Source: an uncultured Poribacteria bacterium (GTDB lineage: Bacteria; Poribacteria; WGA-4E; WGA-3G). From it: a stretch of 64,000 bases of DNA. Each line of letters opens with the position of its first letter. Position 1 is the stretch's first letter. The position numbers and the translations under genes are program-made. The DNA lies in assembly GCA_951812525.1 (NCBI GenBank), contig OX638316.1, positions 2,908,506-2,972,505 of the forward strand. The letters are read 5' to 3'. Shown piece by piece: positions 7,937-21,530 of this stretch. The notes beneath the pieces were generated by a model. The model was not told the origin of the DNA. It saw only the letters and a program-made list of their open reading frames with translations, and made no database searches.

Positions 7937-9049
7937 TCAGTCGAGGGGATTGTCCGCCTCAAGCACTCGGCGTGCCGCAGAGGAGAGCCTTCCTTCCACC
8001 GCGGCCCGTTCCACCCAATGGGCAGGTATGCCATTTGTCCACTTGGCCGGGCTTGCGTCGGGGTCTGGTGTCCGATACGCTATCAGCAAGCCCCATCGGG
8101 TCGGGGTTCCTGGCTTGCGATGGCCGACATGATGCGGCATGTGATGCGGAAACGAGACCATACTCCCAGGCGGTAGCGAGAAGCGTACCATTTCCAACGG
8201 CTTGCCGGTGAAGGCGTGGATCTTTCCCTTCAGCCAGCCTGCTTTCATGGCGGCATCATCATCGGGCCGCTCGGTGCTCCATTTGTACGGAATACGGTAG
8301 AGATGAGCACCCGGGATGACCCCAAGTTCCCCACCCTCCTCGATGGTTGCACCTTCTGGGTAGCAGAGCGTCCGAATACACTGCCGTTGCAGATAATCGG
8401 TGGTAAGGGCGTGTCCGGTACCGATAGGATCTTCGACCTCGTACTGCCCCTGCCGATACTGGTGAGCATGCCACCGCCGCCCTATTGAGCTCGGCGTCCG
8501 GTTAAGCATGTTGCAGTGGTCGAGTATGAAGCGGTCACCGAAAAGTTTGGTGAATAGCTCCATCATCTGAGGGTGGGCGGTGGCGACATCCCTGATGAAG
8601 TCGTCGTATCCAATCGAGAAATGTTCCGGCATGACTCCCTGCGACTCGTACCCGCGTGTCACCAACGCAGGACCTGGACCGAACAGCCCGTGGTCGCGCA
8701 TGTATTGATTCAGTCCTCGTGGTATGAAGCGCATCTGCTCTGAGCCACCGCAACAAGTCGCCAAAAACTCCGGGGTGATTTGCTCCGGCAACGGCGGCTG
8801 TAGCCCCCGGCCCGCGAAGTCGATGGCAGCCCAGTCGGTGTCCATGACGATCTCATCGTTCATCTGCTGTAGCTTCTGCAAGCTCTCCGTCCACCGCTTG
8901 CGGCCGGTGTCGGTTAGTATACCCTCCCACACCCAATATCCTTCGCGCTCGAAGAATGTGCGGTCAAATGCCTGAAGCACTTCCGGCCGCAGCAGGTCAT
9001 GCACGCGGCTTGCTGGGGCGGCGTTGTCGGTTTGACTCCAATTATCCAT
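7937..9049 (-). CDS. Phytanoyl-CoA dioxygenase-like Fe(II)/2-oxoglutarate enzyme
   Basis: Likely hydroxylates or oxidatively demethylates a small metabolite with 2-oxoglutarate and O2. I take the ATG at 9049 (370 residues) because AAAGGAG lies 8 bases upstream; it overlaps the stop of the preceding gene by 8 bases. Features: RRWHAHQYRQGQ in the middle supplies the first iron histidine region, GELGVIPGAHLYRIP the core strand, and HHMPHHVGHRKPGTPTRWGL the distal histidine and 2-oxoglutarate arginine region. The usual HxD appears as HAH, so the acidic iron ligand is not obvious. The family is often expanded in sponge symbionts. Substrate unknown. Confidence 0.75.
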   Translation of the reverse strand: MDNWSQTDNAAPASRVHDLLRPEVLQAFDRTFFEREGYWVWEGILTDTGRKRWTESLQKLQQMNDEIVMDTDWAAIDFAGRGLQPPLPEQITPEFLATCCGGSEQMRFIPRGLNQYMRDHGLFGPGPALVTRGYESQGVMPEHFSIGYDDFIRDVATAHPQMMELFTKLFGDRFILDHCNMLNRTPSSIGRRWHAHQYRQGQYEVEDPIGTGHALTTDYLQRQCIRTLCYPEGATIEEGGELGVIPGAHLYRIPYKWSTERPDDDAAMKAGWLKGKIHAFTGKPLEMVRFSLPPGSMVSFPHHMPHHVGHRKPGTPTRWGLLIAYRTPDPDASPAKWTNGIPAHWVERAAVEGRLSSAARRVLEADNPLD

Positions 9050-10676
9050 TCGCTGCTCCTTTGATAGAAGTTCGACAGTTAGATACAGAAGTGCCAACGG
9101 TATCAATGGCAGTGCTAAATCCTGGACCTCCAGCCGCCACATAGCCATCGCTGGCGCCTGTTAAATCGGGACTGACCCAGAAAGAATATAACTGTCCGTT
9201 TGTTAAATAAAACCTAAATTTCACCGACTTACCAACCAGAGAAGATAAATCTTCTCCTTTTTTCCACCTTACTAATTGACAGGTAGTATCCTTGCTTATC
9301 GGAACACAGTTTATATGGGAATATGGCTCAATCACATTGCCTTGATTGTCTAAAATTTCAACTTGAAGCATACCATTTTTTGTATTCGTATTAACAAAAA
9401 GATGCTTGCCCTTATTAAATATCACGGGTCTAGTTGTTAAAGATTCAGTAGATAAACCGGCATTCATGGAAGCAAAACCGTCTCGGCGAAGTATTGCTAG
9501 TCCAGTCGTACCTCCTGCATACATGTGTCTACCGAGTGTAGGTGACTCTCCGGACCAGGCGCCAAAATAAAAGTAAATCTTATCATTCACTACCAAACAT
9601 CCACCACCTGCCGCATGAATATAACCCCTATTCCATCTGCCTTCCTTTCGCGATGCGGCTATAAAAGGACTGCGAACAGGTCTATGCCAGTGGAAACCAT
9701 CGCGGCTATAACCTAATACCAGTTCATTAATCTTAGGGAATCCCCCTATGGCACATAGCTCATTTGGTGGACCCTTAAAAATTGCAAACAAGCCCAGAAG
9801 CAAGCTCTCATAGGCAACTGCGTTAACGTCATATAGCTGAGGTGAATATCCGAGGTCAGGGTCAGCCTGGTCCAGTTCATCAGCTCTCGCCCAGAATACC
9901 ACATCTTCCTTCTTCCATGAAGCACCTTTGATAAAATCCTCGTGTTCGCGATAACTTCGGGTGCGTCCAAGCGTACGATTAGAGGTCCTAATACTGTAAA
10001 CCCACTTTTTCCTGAAGGCATTATAGAAGAAAGTCGTATTATCCCCACAAGGACCAGTTCTTACTGGCTTACCCCAGTGGATACCATCAAATGAGGTATA
10101 AACTTCCCCGCCTGACCAGTCAGGAGAACGGAAGTATACAAACATTTTAAACCTTTGATTTGGATCGTCTGTTTGGTGGTCTAACCAGACTGCGGCTCCA
10201 TCTCGCCGATATCCTTCCCTTACCGGAAGTACCCTGTTAGTAGCTGGTGCTACATCTAACATGGGTCTATTCCAATGTAAGCCATCTTCACTTATTGCAT
10301 AACCAACACCATCGAACCATCCAGCATGATACCACATTTTAAATAACTGATCTTCGGCATCATAAAAAACGCCGTCATTAAACGGAGAGGCAACCGGATA
10401 TTTTCCATTATTGATCTCCAGTTGAGTTTCAGGCTTTAAAACCGGATTCTCTTCATATAAGCGTGGTTTGTGAAAATCCCTTTTTAGATTGGTATTTTCA
10501 ATGAGAAAGTCATCTACAAACAGTTGTCTTCCCTTATCTATATAAATAACTGTTGGCGGATTCTCTAAGTATGGTACTGAGATAGGTGAAAGGGTTGTGT
10601 CACACAAATTTCGTGGGGGCCACTCTTCGGGCAGCCGAATTCCATTATATAGAATTTCTTTCTCACTGTTTTCCAT
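9042..10676 (-). CDS. Glycoside-hydrolase-like beta-propeller protein (GH32/43-type)
   Basis: Start chosen at ATG 10676, preceded by CAAGGAGGC; this gives 544 residues. Repeated motifs such as FKMWYHAGW, GVGYAISEDGLHWNRP, VYTSFDGIHWGKP and LGYSRDGFHWHRP are the blade motifs (S-x-DG-x-xW) of five-bladed propeller glycosidases and related proteins. RQLFVDDFLIE near the N-terminus is typical of this group. No signal peptide, so it may act on imported oligosaccharide, or serve as a phosphorylase. Catalytic acids cannot be assigned by eye. It lies 46 bp after a paralogue-like gene and overlaps the dioxygenase, so the genes are co-translated. Confidence 0.65.
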   Translation of the reverse strand: MENSEKEILYNGIRLPEEWPPRNLCDTTLSPISVPYLENPPTVIYIDKGRQLFVDDFLIENTNLKRDFHKPRLYEENPVLKPETQLEINNGKYPVASPFNDGVFYDAEDQLFKMWYHAGWFDGVGYAISEDGLHWNRPMLDVAPATNRVLPVREGYRRDGAAVWLDHQTDDPNQRFKMFVYFRSPDWSGGEVYTSFDGIHWGKPVRTGPCGDNTTFFYNAFRKKWVYSIRTSNRTLGRTRSYREHEDFIKGASWKKEDVVFWARADELDQADPDLGYSPQLYDVNAVAYESLLLGLFAIFKGPPNELCAIGGFPKINELVLGYSRDGFHWHRPVRSPFIAASRKEGRWNRGYIHAAGGGCLVVNDKIYFYFGAWSGESPTLGRHMYAGGTTGLAILRRDGFASMNAGLSTESLTTRPVIFNKGKHLFVNTNTKNGMLQVEILDNQGNVIEPYSHINCVPISKDTTCQLVRWKKGEDLSSLVGKSVKFRFYLTNGQLYSFWVSPDLTGASDGYVAAGGPGFSTAIDTVGTSVSNCRTSIKGAANG

Positions 10677-10722
10677 TATTTCAAAGCCTCCTTGCCTATT
10701 GGTTCTCTCGAACTTTTTTATT

Positions 10723-12174
10723 TTAATACTCATAAATTGGATTTGGGGGTATGCCCTGATCTTTGAATCGCCGGTAATCTCCACTCCGAATGGGACTAAA
10801 ATTACCGCGGATGCTGTAGATCCTGCCGTTGAAGAGTTTTACCTCGAGCCGCACCACCTGCTCCATAAATTCTGAGACGGATGGGTGATTCTTCCACTTT
10901 GGTTTCCAAAAAAGATCATCACCGGTAAACGGTATGCAGTCTTCAAAGGTATAACCTTGGTGAGGTTTCCCATCTGGATCTGTTATCTGAACCCGGACCT
11001 CCCCCTGAGGAGCCTGGACGTTGAGGGTGAGTTTTTCACCGTGGAAGAAGAACAGCCGCGTCGTAAAAGATCCTGGACCACCCTGCGGTTCAAAATAGGA
11101 AAATCCATCGAGCCTTAACTCGTGGGTTAATATTGCTCCCTCACCTAGATCCGGACGTGCGTGGATCTGGGCATGTTCTCCCTTTGAGGCGCTGGAATAG
11201 ATCCTAATCTTTTTGTCTTCAGTAATGACCATACTGGATGGGTAGATACAACCATACCCGAATTCACCTGGCTCGGCGTTGGGTAAAAACGGCTCTCTGA
11301 GGGTTCGCTGAAAGTGCAACCCATTATAACTGTAAGCCAGTTGGCACCGCACCTTCCCATGTATGTACTTATTCGGGCTGTCAACAATAGGGGACACTTG
11401 ATATATCCACAGGAATCCGACGAATATGCTCTCGTACGGGAAAACGGGCATACCATAGACCTCAGAGGCTGACGTATCCTGCGCATCGGTCCGGATAGCC
11501 ACCTCGGGTTGGGAGAAGGTACGCCAATCCTTGGTTTCATAAACCGAGATCCGGCGATCTCCCCCTTTAGGCCTTGCTGCAATAACGTAGCTACCCCGGA
11601 TAGGGTTCCAGAAACCCGATACCGCCGGGTCTATTCCAAATGGGTGCCACCTAGCATCTTTGATGAGTTTCCAGGATAAACCATCGGGTGAAACATACAA
11701 AGGAGAGTGTCCTTGGGAGCCTTTTTTTAGGTTACTAGAACTGACAAAAGCCTTAATCCGCTCAGCGGCGTTATCAGTATGGGCATCAAAGAAACAGGGA
11801 CCCCATTCGTCGAACCCTTCAAGAGGAAGGACCTGGTGGGAACAAGCACGATCTGGGATTTGTATTTTATCCGATAGGTCTTCAATCTCCCATCTGACGC
11901 CGTCATCGCTTTCGACTGCTACCGGGACGTGCTGCATCCGACGGCCTGGTCTTGTGTATTGCGTATCGAGTTGACCCTGATACAGACAACGCCAGCGACC
12001 GGTATTGGAGTCTACAAAGGCAGTTGGATAGCCCCAGGAAGGATCGAGATTAGGGTCTATAAATATCCCATCAGCTACTAATTTAGGACGCCCGACATGA
12101 CGGACGAGGTTTTCCCGGCGATGCAGGTACCAATCGTCAAAAAATAGTATGGTCGAACTATCGTTATTGTCCAT
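10723..12174 (-). CDS. Second glycoside-hydrolase-like beta-propeller protein
   Basis: The 483-residue product shares layout with the next gene: FFDDWYLHRREN near the start, propeller motifs PLYVSPDGLSWKLI and LAYSYNGLHFQR, and a C-terminal beta-domain (LTLNVQAPQGEVRVQITD then VRLEVKLFNGRIYSIRG) that parallels the end of the neighbour (LFVNTNTKNGMLQVEILD, VKFRFYLTNGQLYSFW). The two are therefore probably ancient duplicates now working together. ATG 12174 follows TTAAGGAGAAAATTTC. First gene of the unit running to 5931. No signal peptide. Enzymatic activity is inferred from fold resemblance only. Confidence 0.6.
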   Translation of the reverse strand: MDNNDSSTILFFDDWYLHRRENLVRHVGRPKLVADGIFIDPNLDPSWGYPTAFVDSNTGRWRCLYQGQLDTQYTRPGRRMQHVPVAVESDDGVRWEIEDLSDKIQIPDRACSHQVLPLEGFDEWGPCFFDAHTDNAAERIKAFVSSSNLKKGSQGHSPLYVSPDGLSWKLIKDARWHPFGIDPAVSGFWNPIRGSYVIAARPKGGDRRISVYETKDWRTFSQPEVAIRTDAQDTSASEVYGMPVFPYESIFVGFLWIYQVSPIVDSPNKYIHGKVRCQLAYSYNGLHFQRTLREPFLPNAEPGEFGYGCIYPSSMVITEDKKIRIYSSASKGEHAQIHARPDLGEGAILTHELRLDGFSYFEPQGGPGSFTTRLFFFHGEKLTLNVQAPQGEVRVQITDPDGKPHQGYTFEDCIPFTGDDLFWKPKWKNHPSVSEFMEQVVRLEVKLFNGRIYSIRGNFSPIRSGDYRRFKDQGIPPNPIYEY

Positions 12175-15804: not shown

Positions 15805-16209
15805 AACACCTTGATTTCGCCCAAATAAGCCAGTTGTCGATTGTCGATTGCAAAGATAACAGGAGTTGACCCAGCAACACTTCATCATTTCATCCGAACT
15901 AGAAAGCTAATTGAAAATCCTTAACTGGATTTTCTGTTCCATTGCTACACAAAGTCCATGGACAGGTTTTGACAAGTGTTGATAGCAAACAAAGAAACAT
16001 TTAACGGCTAAGTTCTGGGTACTGAAAACTGAAAGTGAGCATAGCGAGCGTACTGAAAGCCACGCGGTGGCGTACTGAAAACTACTTCCGACTTGCATGT
16101 CTACGACGGTTGCTCCGGCTTGTGGAAGTGAGACGACAGGCGACTAATTGTTGTGTTGTTGAATGTAACGAAAATGGCTTTTATCAGGTTCATTTTTCAC
16201 TGCTCATCA

Positions 16210-19200
16210 CTACTTCTTCGGCAGTGCATAAACCCCCCATCGGACCTTTTGAATCTCACCGATCTTGGTAAGCCGCAAGATTTCGTTATATATTGACGAA
16301 GGATTCCCATCGATGGCTGCGATCACGTCAGCTGCCTTTTTCTCACCATCCGCCAAGAGGAAGAGGATTTGTTCGCGGAAAGTTACACGTGGAATATTGC
16401 CGCCCCGTAGTTTGTTTAACGTCCGGTTTGCCTGTCGTGATGAGCATCCCAAGATCCGTTCGATTTCTTGCCTGCTGGTATTAACAGTTATCTGGTTCCG
16501 TTCTGTTTCAAACCGCTGACGTATGGTTATTGTTTCAGGAAGTTTGTCAAGTCCGCCGGCGACTTCAAAATCTTCCCAGTCAAAAAGGAGCGTCTCAGGT
16601 CGGTCTGTGATGTTTGGAATTTCAAGACTACTCATCAATATCACCTTTTTACCGCTCCTGCGATTTAATCCTGTAAGTCCAACGATCTTTGTGATGAATT
16701 CCCCAACAGTCTGTGTGTGAATTCTCTGGACGCGTTCATCCTTATAGTGTTGGAATTCTGTGTCTGCTTCATAACAGAGGGGCTCCTCATCATTACCATA
16801 TAAGATTTGTGCACGCCGCCATACGACACCCGGCTCCAAGTACGGCGTGCCGACAATCCAAGTAACTTCTGCTGCCTCAAAAGCCGTCTCCAAATTGTAT
16901 ATATTATTGTATTCGGTTAGTAAACAGACGTTCTCCATTTTCGCGACCTCTTTCAGTTGTTGGATCGCTAAAATGTCAGTAATAATAGCATGTTTAACAT
17001 TCGGATCTCTCTTAATTTCCGCACAGATACCGAGCAGAAAGCGTTCTCCCATTTTAGAGAGCCCAATAACATCCCATGTGCTATCGAAGTCGAACAGTGT
17101 TTTTAGTGTATGGATACCCGTCCGAATCTGAAATACCTGATTTCCAGCGATCCACGGAGTCGGGTTAATATGAATAAATTCAGTTTCTTCGCTTGGAAAC
17201 GCCTTATGAAGCTGTTCCTTAGACAACGTTACTGACATAAACAAAAGCTGTTTTATACTCGGATGCAGCACCGGTGGCACCCAGAACCGTAGGAGTTCGT
17301 CATACCATATCATCGGTGCGTCGGCATCCCGGGTATAATGTGCTAAGAACCGCTTGAGTTGATGCCAGAACGTCCAGTCTGGATTCCGATAGATGCTCGG
17401 GAATTTCTGAATCTTCTCGACAGTTGTGATATCCAAGATACCTAACCCGATGGCGCGTTCAATCGACATCGGTATTCTCAAATCCTCGTTAAGCACAAAG
17501 GATTCGAGTTGGAAAACCTGTAGCCTCTTTGCCATGAGTCTATCTGCAGCGGCACTATCAAGCGGAATGTAAGCAAAAATGCCACCATCAAACTCGATCC
17601 CAAAACGTGCTAACTCCGTTCCAGTCTCGTCATCAGCAATTCCTCGCGCGACAACCTTGCCTCTGGCATTAACTTGACACATCTGCTTAACGATTTCTGC
17701 TTCATGTCGCTGAAATCCCCGTACTATTGTGCGAATACGTCTAATAACAAAATCGTCAGGTTCGCTTTCGATTTCCAATGTGTTTATTAAAGCCTCTGCG
17801 AAGTTCCCTAACGCATGCCCTTGCCAGTTTACGCGCCATTCTTCTAATCTCTCACTCGATATACTACATCCCAAAAATAATCCGTCCGATTTTATTGAAC
17901 TAACAATACAAAGGCGTTGGGTGCCGTTGATGGGTTTAAGAATTTTTTCTAACACTGCCAATTCTTGTGGATCCAAAAACTTTTGGTGAAACCCAAATAG
18001 TTGTGTCTCAGCACGTTGCAATGTGGCTGGCTGCGATAGATAACCTCGCTCCTGGCAGGCCGTATAGACAGGACACTGTGGACAGAGAGTTTCACTTGCA
18101 TTCACTCCTTTCGCCACGAGTGCTAAGAACCGCTCGGGATCCTCACAGACGTTCCCACGTTCAAAAGGAGCTGCCATCCGAACGTCAATAGGTATTTCTT
18201 TCAGCTGATTCCACAAATAAGGCACATTTCGCCAGCGTGCGAGGGATGGTAGATTTTGTCTTTGGAAGTGTTTCACCGCTCCTTCTACGATACGGAAGTT
18301 CGCGCTGTAAGCGACTGTGCCGCTTTTTAGGAGATGTGATTCCACTTCATAGTTGCACCTTGCATCCGTCTCGGCAACAAGTCCAATAACGCGCTTATCG
18401 CTCTCAAAGACTTTATTTATTTCACCGATATTTTCTTCGAGGGGCCCATAAACTTTCTCAGTAACTTCGGATTTTTTCAACACCGGAGATGGACGTTTTA
18501 TTGCCAACGGACTGAGAGTTCCTTCTCGCACCGCAAGCACTGTATCAGAAACAGGAGGGTCCGCAGTAATCGGTGGTAGAATGCTCGTATCGTCCCAAAC
18601 ATCTGTGATGAGGGTATCTTTCGTCGGGAGTCCTAAATCCGATGTAGAGGCACGTATCCACACACCAGCATCTGTCTCCCATAACACCACGTCTGTAACA
18701 TTATCCGTACTGTCACGCGCCGTCCAGTGATGGAAATCGTCTTCTTCTCCGATATAAGAAAGCCCGCGTTTCAAAAACGCCTCTTTTGCTAAATCTAACT
18801 TATGTGAACCCAAGGACGGTAGGGAAGTTATAACAGATTGCGATGTCGGCAGCGGTCTCTCTGGTCCAAGCAGTTGCGGTACGTGCAGTTCGGATCGGAG
18901 CGTATCAATAGCAGAAAAGAGCACACCTTTGGCAATCACAGGCGGATCTAATAGGTCTCCAAGCAGCAGCTCATAGCGCGCATCCCAAGGGCTGTGTCCG
19001 GCTTCTCCAAGGATTTCAAGATACACGTCCCGATGATGCGGATTTTCCGGTGTCGGGGCATCCTTATAGATATACAGTCTCGCCTCTTCAGTGTTCTCAT
19101 GGAGGTAATCCGGGATTCTGCAAGAGAAACGCAAACCTCCGGACTTTGTCAGCGTCAACAGCGGATTCCCGACAACACTGACGAGTGTCTCAATACAAGC

Positions 19201-19608
19201 CAAGACCGCCTCGGGTGCCGCACAGATCGCTTCGTATGTAAACTCAAAGTCGTGCCATCGCGCACCATGGTGTTCGGAAGGTATACCCGTATACACTCGG
19301 ATCCCCCACGATGTATGCCAGTGTCTGATTTCCCAGTCTCCAATCCTTTGACGTCTCAAAAAACGTTCGCCACCAAAAGACTGTGGAACTCTGTCGTATC
19401 CAGGACCCCCTCCTACAGGCATAAAGGAAATCCCCGCCTGCTCTAAGTCATAAAGCCTAACGGGGTATCTCTGTGCACAATAGACCGTGAAATGGTAATA
19501 CAACCCCTTGTAGACAGAAGGTGTTACAATCGTCTTTTTCTGTCGGAGCGGCTGCGAGTGTCGTTGATGGCAGCGTTGGATTATATCTTCCAAGGAATTT
19601 ATATTCAT
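16210..19608 (-). CDS. Large primase/helicase-like protein with winged-helix tail, Walker A degenerate
   Basis: No exact family recognised. Of 1132 residues, the N-terminal part (about 90-245) has RWHDFEFTYEA, KSGGLRFSCR and DVYLEILGEAG, faintly like archaeo-eukaryotic primase motifs. Residues 405-830 resemble an XPD/DinG-type SF2 helicase: VIGLVAETDARCNYE sits where a Walker A would be but lacks GxGKT; four cysteines C488, C509, C512 and C518 (CPQCPVYTAC) look like the iron-sulfur cluster ligands; WYDELLRF (768-775) stands for the DE box; LLFMSVTLSKEQL (788-800) for motif III. Residues 910-990 contain VGTPYLEPGVVW and GLNRRSGKK. The tail has two HTH-like units (SRQEIERILGCSSRQANRTL and a wHTH at 1078-1130). 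Probably a replication- or defence-related nucleic-acid protein; ATPase activity is doubtful. Confidence 0.55.
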   Translation of the reverse strand: MNINSLEDIIQRCHQRHSQPLRQKKTIVTPSVYKGLYYHFTVYCAQRYPVRLYDLEQAGISFMPVGGGPGYDRVPQSFGGERFLRRQRIGDWEIRHWHTSWGIRVYTGIPSEHHGARWHDFEFTYEAICAAPEAVLACIETLVSVVGNPLLTLTKSGGLRFSCRIPDYLHENTEEARLYIYKDAPTPENPHHRDVYLEILGEAGHSPWDARYELLLGDLLDPPVIAKGVLFSAIDTLRSELHVPQLLGPERPLPTSQSVITSLPSLGSHKLDLAKEAFLKRGLSYIGEEDDFHHWTARDSTDNVTDVVLWETDAGVWIRASTSDLGLPTKDTLITDVWDDTSILPPITADPPVSDTVLAVREGTLSPLAIKRPSPVLKKSEVTEKVYGPLEENIGEINKVFESDKRVIGLVAETDARCNYEVESHLLKSGTVAYSANFRIVEGAVKHFQRQNLPSLARWRNVPYLWNQLKEIPIDVRMAAPFERGNVCEDPERFLALVAKGVNASETLCPQCPVYTACQERGYLSQPATLQRAETQLFGFHQKFLDPQELAVLEKILKPINGTQRLCIVSSIKSDGLFLGCSISSERLEEWRVNWQGHALGNFAEALINTLEIESEPDDFVIRRIRTIVRGFQRHEAEIVKQMCQVNARGKVVARGIADDETGTELARFGIEFDGGIFAYIPLDSAAADRLMAKRLQVFQLESFVLNEDLRIPMSIERAIGLGILDITTVEKIQKFPSIYRNPDWTFWHQLKRFLAHYTRDADAPMIWYDELLRFWVPPVLHPSIKQLLFMSVTLSKEQLHKAFPSEETEFIHINPTPWIAGNQVFQIRTGIHTLKTLFDFDSTWDVIGLSKMGERFLLGICAEIKRDPNVKHAIITDILAIQQLKEVAKMENVCLLTEYNNIYNLETAFEAAEVTWIVGTPYLEPGVVWRRAQILYGNDEEPLCYEADTEFQHYKDERVQRIHTQTVGEFITKIVGLTGLNRRSGKKVILMSSLEIPNITDRPETLLFDWEDFEVAGGLDKLPETITIRQRFETERNQITVNTSRQEIERILGCSSRQANRTLNKLRGGNIPRVTFREQILFLLADGEKKAADVIAAIDGNPSSIYNEILRLTKIGEIQKVRWGVYALPKK

Positions 19609-20024: not shown

Positions 20025-20104
20025 CTTTACGCATCTAAAAATGAGCGGGATTGCAATAGGGACTTAGAAGGGGAAACCCATGCTAGACGGCATTTTTCTG
20101 TTTG

Positions 20105-20485
20105 ATGGAGCATACTTTCCAGGAATCCGCATGTCTCCTCGGGCGTGCAATTTTATCAATCAATTATAAAGACGAGGACCCAGTTTTTTCAATAACCGAC
20201 ATACTCTGTCTCCTCCGCAGTGTGAATGCACATGGCCCAGGTGAGTTTGAAATTCGCCAAACCCTTTCTGGCTATATTCAAATTGTTTATACACCAGATG
20301 TTCTTGATGAAGTAGGATTTGACGAAGGATACATACTGATTGATTTTGTAGAGACGTTTGATCGCGGACAGAACCTTCTCTGGATTAACGAAAAAGTCAT
20401 TATTGCCTTCATAGAAAGAATCTATCATGCAACAACATTCAGTGTTCATTCAATTGCCATCAGCGCCAATGCAGGCGATTTATAA
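20105..20485 (+). CDS. Small protein of unknown function overlapping the AAA+ regulator gene
   Basis: A 126-residue soluble product from ATG 20105, without recognisable domain; it is acidic with alternating strand/helix character (GEFEIRQTLSGYIQIVYTPD, GYILIDFVETF). Its last 59 bases overlap the start of the sigma54-type gene, so the two are translationally linked and it may be that protein's sensory or partner subunit. No ribosome-binding site precedes this start. A better one (AAGGGGAAACCC) precedes ATG 20080 in another frame, which opens a 29-codon frame starting MLDGIFLFDGAYF and ending at 20169. Either a leader peptide or a frameshift in the true N-terminus could explain that. Confidence 0.5.
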   Translation: MEHTFQESACLLGRAILSINYKDEDPVFSITDILCLLRSVNAHGPGEFEIRQTLSGYIQIVYTPDVLDEVGFDEGYILIDFVETFDRGQNLLWINEKVIIAFIERIYHATTFSVHSIAISANAGDL

Positions 20486-21530
20486 CACAATTCGGCAGGT
20501 TGGAAGGTCAAACATACCGTTCTTCATTACTGGCGAAACCGGTGTCGGTAAGGAAGCGGTCGCACGATATATCCATGAAAGTGGTCCACGACGCGACCAA
20601 CCTTTTATCGCTATTAGCTGTGGTAGATTTTCCGCAGAACTCTTGCAAAGCGAGTTCTTTGGGCATGAAGCAGGAGCGTTTACGAGCGCAATCCGTCAGC
20701 GGCGGGGTGCGTTTGAAGTAGCAGACGGTGGCGTTCTCTTTTTGGATGAAGTCCCCGAAATGTCGTTGGATGCTCAGAAAATGCTGCTGCGTGTCTTAGA
20801 CACAGCAACATTTACGCGTCTGGGTGGAAACGAAGTCCTGGCAGTGGACATTCACATAGTTGCAGCGACGAACAAAAACATTATGAAAACCGTTGCGGAA
20901 AAGGAGTTTAGAGAGGATCTCTACTATCGCCTCAAAGGAATGATGCTCCATCTACCCCCATTAAGAGAGCGTCCAGAGGACATCGTGCCTTTAGTAGAAG
21001 CGTTTATTAGCAAGTTCAGTGCCGAATATGAAAAAAATGTTACAGGGATCTCCCAAGAGGTGCTTACGCTTCTTGAGCAAGCGGCATGGCCTGGGAACAT
21101 CCGCCAGTTGAAAAGCACAGTCCAGACGGCTGTCGCTCTTGCTACAACTGACAAACTAGAACCTAAAGATTTTCCTGGCATCTACCCAGAACTCGCCGAG
21201 ACACTTATTTCTATATGGCACACCCTCCCATCGGAAACGCAGGACGCAGTATGGGAGACACTCTCTCTGGAAACACAACACACAATTATGCATGAACTCT
21301 CGAAACCGACAGCAGGGTTTTGGCGTAGCCTGTCCGTTTCCAAAATGGCGAAAAAGATCGAAAATGGGGAATCTGTGAATATAGAAAATATGGATCAGAA
21401 TCAAATTCTACGTGCGGTTGTCCAGAAACGGATACAGCAATATCCCTCTTCGCGTGAGGCAGCTGAATCACTAAGTATTGATATCCGTACGCTTCAAAGA
21501 TACGCACAATTCGAGGAATCAGACGAATAA
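20427..21530 (+). CDS. Sigma54-activator-type AAA+ regulator with altered GAFTGA loop
   Basis: A 367-residue AAA+ protein of the NtrC/PspF class, in which ATP hydrolysis normally remodels sigma54 RNA polymerase. Walker A GETGVGKE is at 36-43, the sigma54-contact loop reads GAFTSA (83-88) instead of GAFTGA, Walker B VLFLDEVPE at 103-111, arginine-finger region FREDLYYRLK at 161-170, WPGNIRQL at 221-228. The C-terminus (326-362) forms a Fis-like HTH (SSREAAESLSIDIRTLQRYA). There is no N-terminal receiver domain; the overlapping upstream gene may supply the input. The family normally needs the GAFTGA glycine region, so sigma54 contact is in question. It faces away from the primase/helicase-like gene. 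Confidence 0.85.
   Translation: MQQHSVFIQLPSAPMQAIYNTIRQVGRSNIPFFITGETGVGKEAVARYIHESGPRRDQPFIAISCGRFSAELLQSEFFGHEAGAFTSAIRQRRGAFEVADGGVLFLDEVPEMSLDAQKMLLRVLDTATFTRLGGNEVLAVDIHIVAATNKNIMKTVAEKEFREDLYYRLKGMMLHLPPLRERPEDIVPLVEAFISKFSAEYEKNVTGISQEVLTLLEQAAWPGNIRQLKSTVQTAVALATTDKLEPKDFPGIYPELAETLISIWHTLPSETQDAVWETLSLETQHTIMHELSKPTAGFWRSLSVSKMAKKIENGESVNIENMDQNQILRAVVQKRIQQYPSSREAAESLSIDIRTLQRYAQFEESDE

Follow-up and report, generated by a model that had tools for sequence, protein, structure and literature searches.

A Poribacteria protein family of probable Fe-S helicase descent, with copies that have lost ATPase motifs and kept four cysteines

The gene on the minus strand at positions 16210-19608 of the window (the whole stretch of 64,000 nucleotides analysed here, from an uncultured Poribacteria bacterium) encodes a copy of a protein family that joins a Prim-Pol-like N-terminal region, a DinG/XPD-like central part and a C-terminal winged helix, and in this copy the ATPase motifs have been lost. 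The family likely descends from a superfamily 2 helicase of the DinG/XPD type carrying an Fe-S cluster, a descent well supported by profile comparisons, and it represents a large, lineage-specific expansion of paralogues in Poribacteria that has apparently not been described so far. ATPase motifs have been lost in many copies and the four cysteines of the module never have, suggesting that a motor was probably turned into a DNA-binding regulator. That the family is Poribacteria-specific and derived from an Fe-S helicase, with the subclade of the window copy acting as an ATP-independent DNA-binding regulator, is held here with the balance about even.

The gene and its family

The host, a Candidatus Poribacteria sponge symbiont with a genome of 5,062,467 bases in one contig, harbours 12 intact ORFs of the family (the window copy, of 1132 aa, and 11 others, the whole ranging from 782 to 1175 aa), as well as a 91-aa C-terminal fragment; the original prediction had missed these other copies. 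In a search of 85 genomes of the phylum with a 23-row profile, members were found in 49, all from two genera (g1 and g20) within a single family; no member was detected in the other families, orders, and classes. A lone C-terminal winged-helix remnant of 74 aa also occurs at L020:3123-3347, 8 kb from an intact copy. The invariance of the cysteines and the purifying selection described below confirm, at the level of sequence, that the window gene is real and not a chance ORF.

No such family appears in the titles and the opening parts of abstracts of papers dealing with Poribacteria and with primases or helicases, and the main text of a review published on DinG-like proteins in 2025 (PMC11981726) is silent on primase, AEP and Poribacteria. 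As this coverage of the literature is partial, the novelty of the family is provisional.

ATPase motifs and the cysteine module

An alignment of 70 family ORFs was used to compare the window copy with its relatives; the sites described in this section all lie on the minus strand. At the Walker A (motif I) position, residues 408-420 (IGLVAETDARCNY; 18349..18387), relatives read IGLxAETGAGKSY, and the sequence TDARCN was indeed found at residues 414-419 where GxGKT is expected, as had been reported. The DE box ascribed to this copy in the original prediction is absent, since the degraded motif II (residues 566-576; 17881..17913) reads LCIVSSIKSDG, against LCIIDEA in relatives. The motif III position (residues 789-796, LFMSVTLS; 17221..17244) does retain the predicted SVT, at residues 792-794, where relatives have SAT or SST, and the eroded motif VI (residues 972-985, ITKIVGLTGLNRRS; 16654..16695; relatives LTQIVGRAGLNR) contains the stretch KIVGLTGLNR in place of QxxGRxxR. 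With motifs I, II and part of VI decayed, the usual binding and hydrolysis of ATP are not expected.

Paralogues possess a normal Walker A (TGAGKS), IIDEA, SAT or SST, and QIxGR, arranged as in helicases; L004, a paralogue from the same genome, reads TGAGKS, IIDEA, SST, and IGR. GxGK[S/T/N] occurs in one large and one small clade, many of whose members also have IIDEA, SAT or SST, and QIxGR; GxGK[ST] is present in just 14 of the 70 rows, 10 of them also with hhDE. The window subclade comprises seven rows (the window copy, two more copies of the same genome, L009, L010, L011, and L030), in which the Walker A site reads TDA-R/K or TDVR. L012, the earliest branch of the window clade, has GARNN at this site and yet keeps IIDEA and SAT, and the motifs can thus be arranged in a series from GAGKS through GARNN with IIDEA to TDARxN with IVSS.

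The four-cysteine module (residues 488-518; 18055..18147), with the spacing C488-x20-C509-x2-C512-x5-C518, was located at the very residues given originally (C488, C509, C512, and C518). All four cysteines are kept in 61 of 61 module-bearing members of the 70-row alignment, and their codons are mixed, both TGT and TGC being used. Neither GxGK[ST] nor hhDE is present in 36 of the 62 rows counted, the 62nd being a short form that enters the count through an artefact of alignment. The module is missing from nine rows, and the N- and C-terminal parts are still conserved where it has been removed. On one quick midpoint-rooted tree, built with the motif columns excluded and no outgroup, these absences correspond to about 6 clean, in-frame removals of the whole module, compared with 2 changes of GxGK, 9 of the DE box, and 12 of motif VI. 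The cysteines may bind an Fe-S cluster.

Conservation along the alignment is highest in columns 100-240 and 481-530, the latter with 38% of columns at 90% identity or more. Pairwise dN/dS values in the window subclade are 0.17-0.21, at dS of about 0.6, and 0.17-0.28 in the Walker A/Fe-S region of the window clade; with the clade at about 0.2, the window copy is no free-running pseudogene. The original prediction held that relatives with a normal Walker A would mark this copy as simply degenerate. The motif is absent from the window copy and normal in relatives, including paralogues of the same genome, so by that reasoning the copy is degenerate; however, "simply degenerate" is too weak a description, because the subclade devoid of Walker A has been kept across several genomes with dN/dS of about 0.2 and every cysteine retained.

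Helicase ancestry

The XPD/DinG-like helicase ancestry proposed at the outset and the Fe-S-type cysteine cluster are supported at the level of the family, while the window copy itself shows a low-confidence fold match alone. The order of the motifs in paralogues, together with the DinG match of L037, points to a DinG/XPD-like ancestry. This intact paralogue, which has all motifs, matched the type IV DinG profile in one stretch (residues 393-805, E 1.8e-7), a profile reached by 1 of the 23 members scanned. When intact members were aligned by hhalign with 25 Poribacteria DinG proteins, CPxCPVYxxC was placed opposite CxxxxCxTYxxC of the DinG loop and IIDE opposite IIDEAH, with a score equalled by none of 150 shuffled profiles; helicase domain 2 alone showed no significant similarity to DinG, as 42 of 150 shuffles scored equally high.

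No helicase or primase model of Pfam and NCBIfam matches the family, and the window protein alone gave weak matches, mostly to HTH proteins, against Pfam, NCBIfam, PHROGs, and PDB sequences. The AlphaFold model of the single window sequence had a pLDDT of 33, and that from an 11-row alignment was also poor (mean pLDDT 49.6). XPD (2vsf) was the sole PDB match of the model below 1e-3, of low confidence (E 1.9e-4, TM-score at most 0.23), and the viral structure library yielded nothing significant.

The family shares with DinG, CasDinG, and XPD the order of Walker A, four-cysteine module, DE box, long insert, SAT, and QxxGR, and differs from DinG and XPD by its Prim-Pol-like N-terminus, its C-terminal winged helix, and the cysteine spacing x20-x2-x5; the window copy further differs by the absence of Walker A and the DE box. 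CasDinG is presented (PMC10450177) as a helicase that is active although its FeS domain is vestigial, and as there described is the reverse of the window copy.

N- and C-terminal regions

A primase-like N-terminus had been predicted, and what stands of this is a weak, colinear resemblance to Prim-Pol (AEP) proteins over residues 35-245 (18874..19506, minus strand). Residues 52-225 align with Prim-Pol proteins (PF09250) of the phylum, whose landmarks GISFMPhG, GIxxxTGxxS, WHDxxF, SGGLxFxxR, and VYLEI are all five found in the right order. WHDFEF (118-123) occupies the motif I position, SGGLRFSCR (156-164) that of motif II, with Arg160 replacing the His, and YLEI (196-199) that of motif III. Asp120 of motif I is present in 69 of 70 rows and the second acid in 46 of 70, whereas all 70 rows have Arg for the His of motif II, a difference from Prim-Pol proteins. 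The N-terminus gave no match to Prim-Pol in Pfam or the other libraries, one profile comparison had a global hhalign E of 0.0053, and the score of the Prim-Pol alignment exceeded that of shuffled profiles only modestly, 6 of 200 scoring as high. The primase resemblance of this region is suggestive. Other Prim-Pol proteins of the phylum have no cysteine cluster of the kind seen in the family.

AEP-TOTE proteins (PF22548) were considered as well, as they resemble the family in uniting primase and helicase in a single polypeptide of about 1100 aa (L100). This identity was rejected, for nothing in the genome matches PF22548 even at a threshold of E 1; L100 also differs in that the CxxC-type cysteine cluster tested for is absent.

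The DNA-binding HTH units foreseen at the end of the protein are borne out by an HTH-rich C-terminus (residues 1036-1132; 16213..16503, minus strand), with a Crp-like helix pair at about 1037-1071 and a winged helix of AbiEi_4/ArsR/TrmB-like type at about 1077-1130. The Pfam AbiEi_4 model matched 20 of 23 members (best E 1.2e-6), and the C-terminal model has a TM-score of about 0.8 to small winged-helix chains, both of which argue well for a predicted winged helix. The likeness to AbiEi_4, ArsR, and TrmB proteins covers the C-terminal 50-90 residues, the rest of those proteins being absent.

Genomic setting

The genes next to family members vary from copy to copy (WD40, FGE-sulfatase, IS605 OrfB, SNF2, AMP-binding, and others), with no conserved gene among them to suggest a pathway. 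One array of four family genes recurs in a second genome, with gene order and flanking genes preserved; the array genes have dS of 0.8-1.3 and dN/dS of 0.16-0.21, and the flanking genes have dN/dS of 0.08-0.14. Judged from these sequence comparisons, family members are resident genes, and their rate of evolution is about double that of their neighbours. In a tandem array of four family copies there is an IS605 OrfB/TnpB-like gene (L021:9232-10320). An origin as a mobile element marked by terminal repeats or by constant cargo was rejected, given that the flanks of the copies are unrelated except for orthologous loci, the pair formed by the window copy and L026, and one short dispersed repeat.

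The window copy and the short paralogue at L026:5934-8447 have common flanks, with 77-88% DNA identity in parts, and the genes themselves belong to different clades (dS about 1.5), a pattern suggesting that a gene was replaced or converted at sites that had been duplicated. The short dispersed repeat lies just 3' of the window gene (16060-16225) and has five more copies in the genome, at 77-89% identity. A divergent pair of genes beside the window gene (20102-21530, plus strand) encodes proteins of 127 aa and 367 aa, the latter an AAA+ protein resembling sigma-54 activators, in which GAFTSA replaces the usual GAFTGA. Of the close copies of this pair in the genome (91% and 75%), one adjoins another family copy and one is truncated. 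The activator was rejected as a general partner, as it adjoins 3 of the 12 genome copies and is present elsewhere without the family.

Other genes were observed in these surroundings. Near a family copy, L024:4171-5253 encodes a protein with the 5-hmdU DNA kinase helical domain (PF18723, E 6e-98), possibly a DNA base-modification gene in Poribacteria. On the minus strand of the window, three proteins encoded side by side at 7937-12174 (403, 580, and 483 aa) have zero Pfam matches; the 580- and 483-aa proteins are related to each other.

Proposed function and alternative explanations

According to the proposed mechanism, the ancestor would have been a DinG/XPD-type Fe-S superfamily 2 helicase whose N-terminal region was Prim-Pol-like and whose C-terminus carried a winged helix. 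In the window subclade the ATPase motifs would have decayed with the fold still under selection, and DNA might be recognised by the winged helix together with the Prim-Pol-like part. The four-cysteine module may stabilise a DNA-gripping lobe or make this lobe respond to the state of the cluster, and the protein could be a road-block or a regulator, possibly working side by side with paralogues of the same cell that are still competent ATPases. Six lineages do without the cysteine module altogether, which counts against this explanation. A regulatory role of the window protein is nonetheless favoured; the ATP-independent, helicase-derived regulator of the original prediction is compatible with the helicase origin and with motif loss under selection.

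A wider reading, tentative and less likely than not, extends this role to the whole family, which would have dropped the motor and kept the Fe-S lobe as an ATP-independent DNA sensor or regulator, with the cysteine cluster as its selected functional centre and about a dozen versions per genome.

The family might instead stem from a Prim-Pol-helicase that served replication or repair and had a mobile origin, the copies devoid of Walker A being functionless, slowly eroding leftovers. Plasmids do carry Prim-Pol/helicase replication proteins of similar architecture, three motifs have eroded, two of them repeatedly (DE box and motif VI), and copies are dispersed, some being truncated, such as the 91-aa piece, and some in other genomes carrying internal stops. 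Such relaxed decay is nevertheless unlikely, as dN/dS stays near 0.2 over the whole window subclade, the cysteines are invariant, the frame stays open for about 1130 codons in most copies, orthologous arrays have persisted over dS 0.8-1.3, and phages, plasmids, and viral contigs contain zero relatives of the family.

The persistence of a SAT-like motif, the Fe-S-type cysteines, and part of motif VI, along with paralogues of the same genome bearing GAGKS, GAGKN, and IIDE, might indicate a working ATP-dependent helicase, with either an unorthodox nucleotide site or an intact paralogue supplying the ATPase in a complex. This is improbable in view of the loss of the P-loop Gly and Lys and of both motif II acids from the window copy, and of the Walker A segment (columns 391-430) being the least conserved of the protein, with 3% of columns at 90% identity or more. 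Equally improbable is a component of anti-phage defence, with divergent paralogues kept as variants against changing invaders: the family is multi-copy and lineage-specific, evolves at about twice the dN/dS of its neighbours, and its DinG-like and AbiEi-like profile matches come from a defence library, but no defence genes recur beside the copies, the AbiEi match covers a generic winged helix only, and no nuclease or toxin domain was recognised.

Concluding remarks

What the cluster does apart from the motor is an open question for XPD/DinG-type helicases. Loss of the ATPase with all Fe-S-type cysteines kept, as favoured here for the window subclade, would allow the two roles to be told apart. 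The family constitutes a natural test series, with members having a full motor, a P-loop without the catalytic Glu, no P-loop, or no cysteine module.
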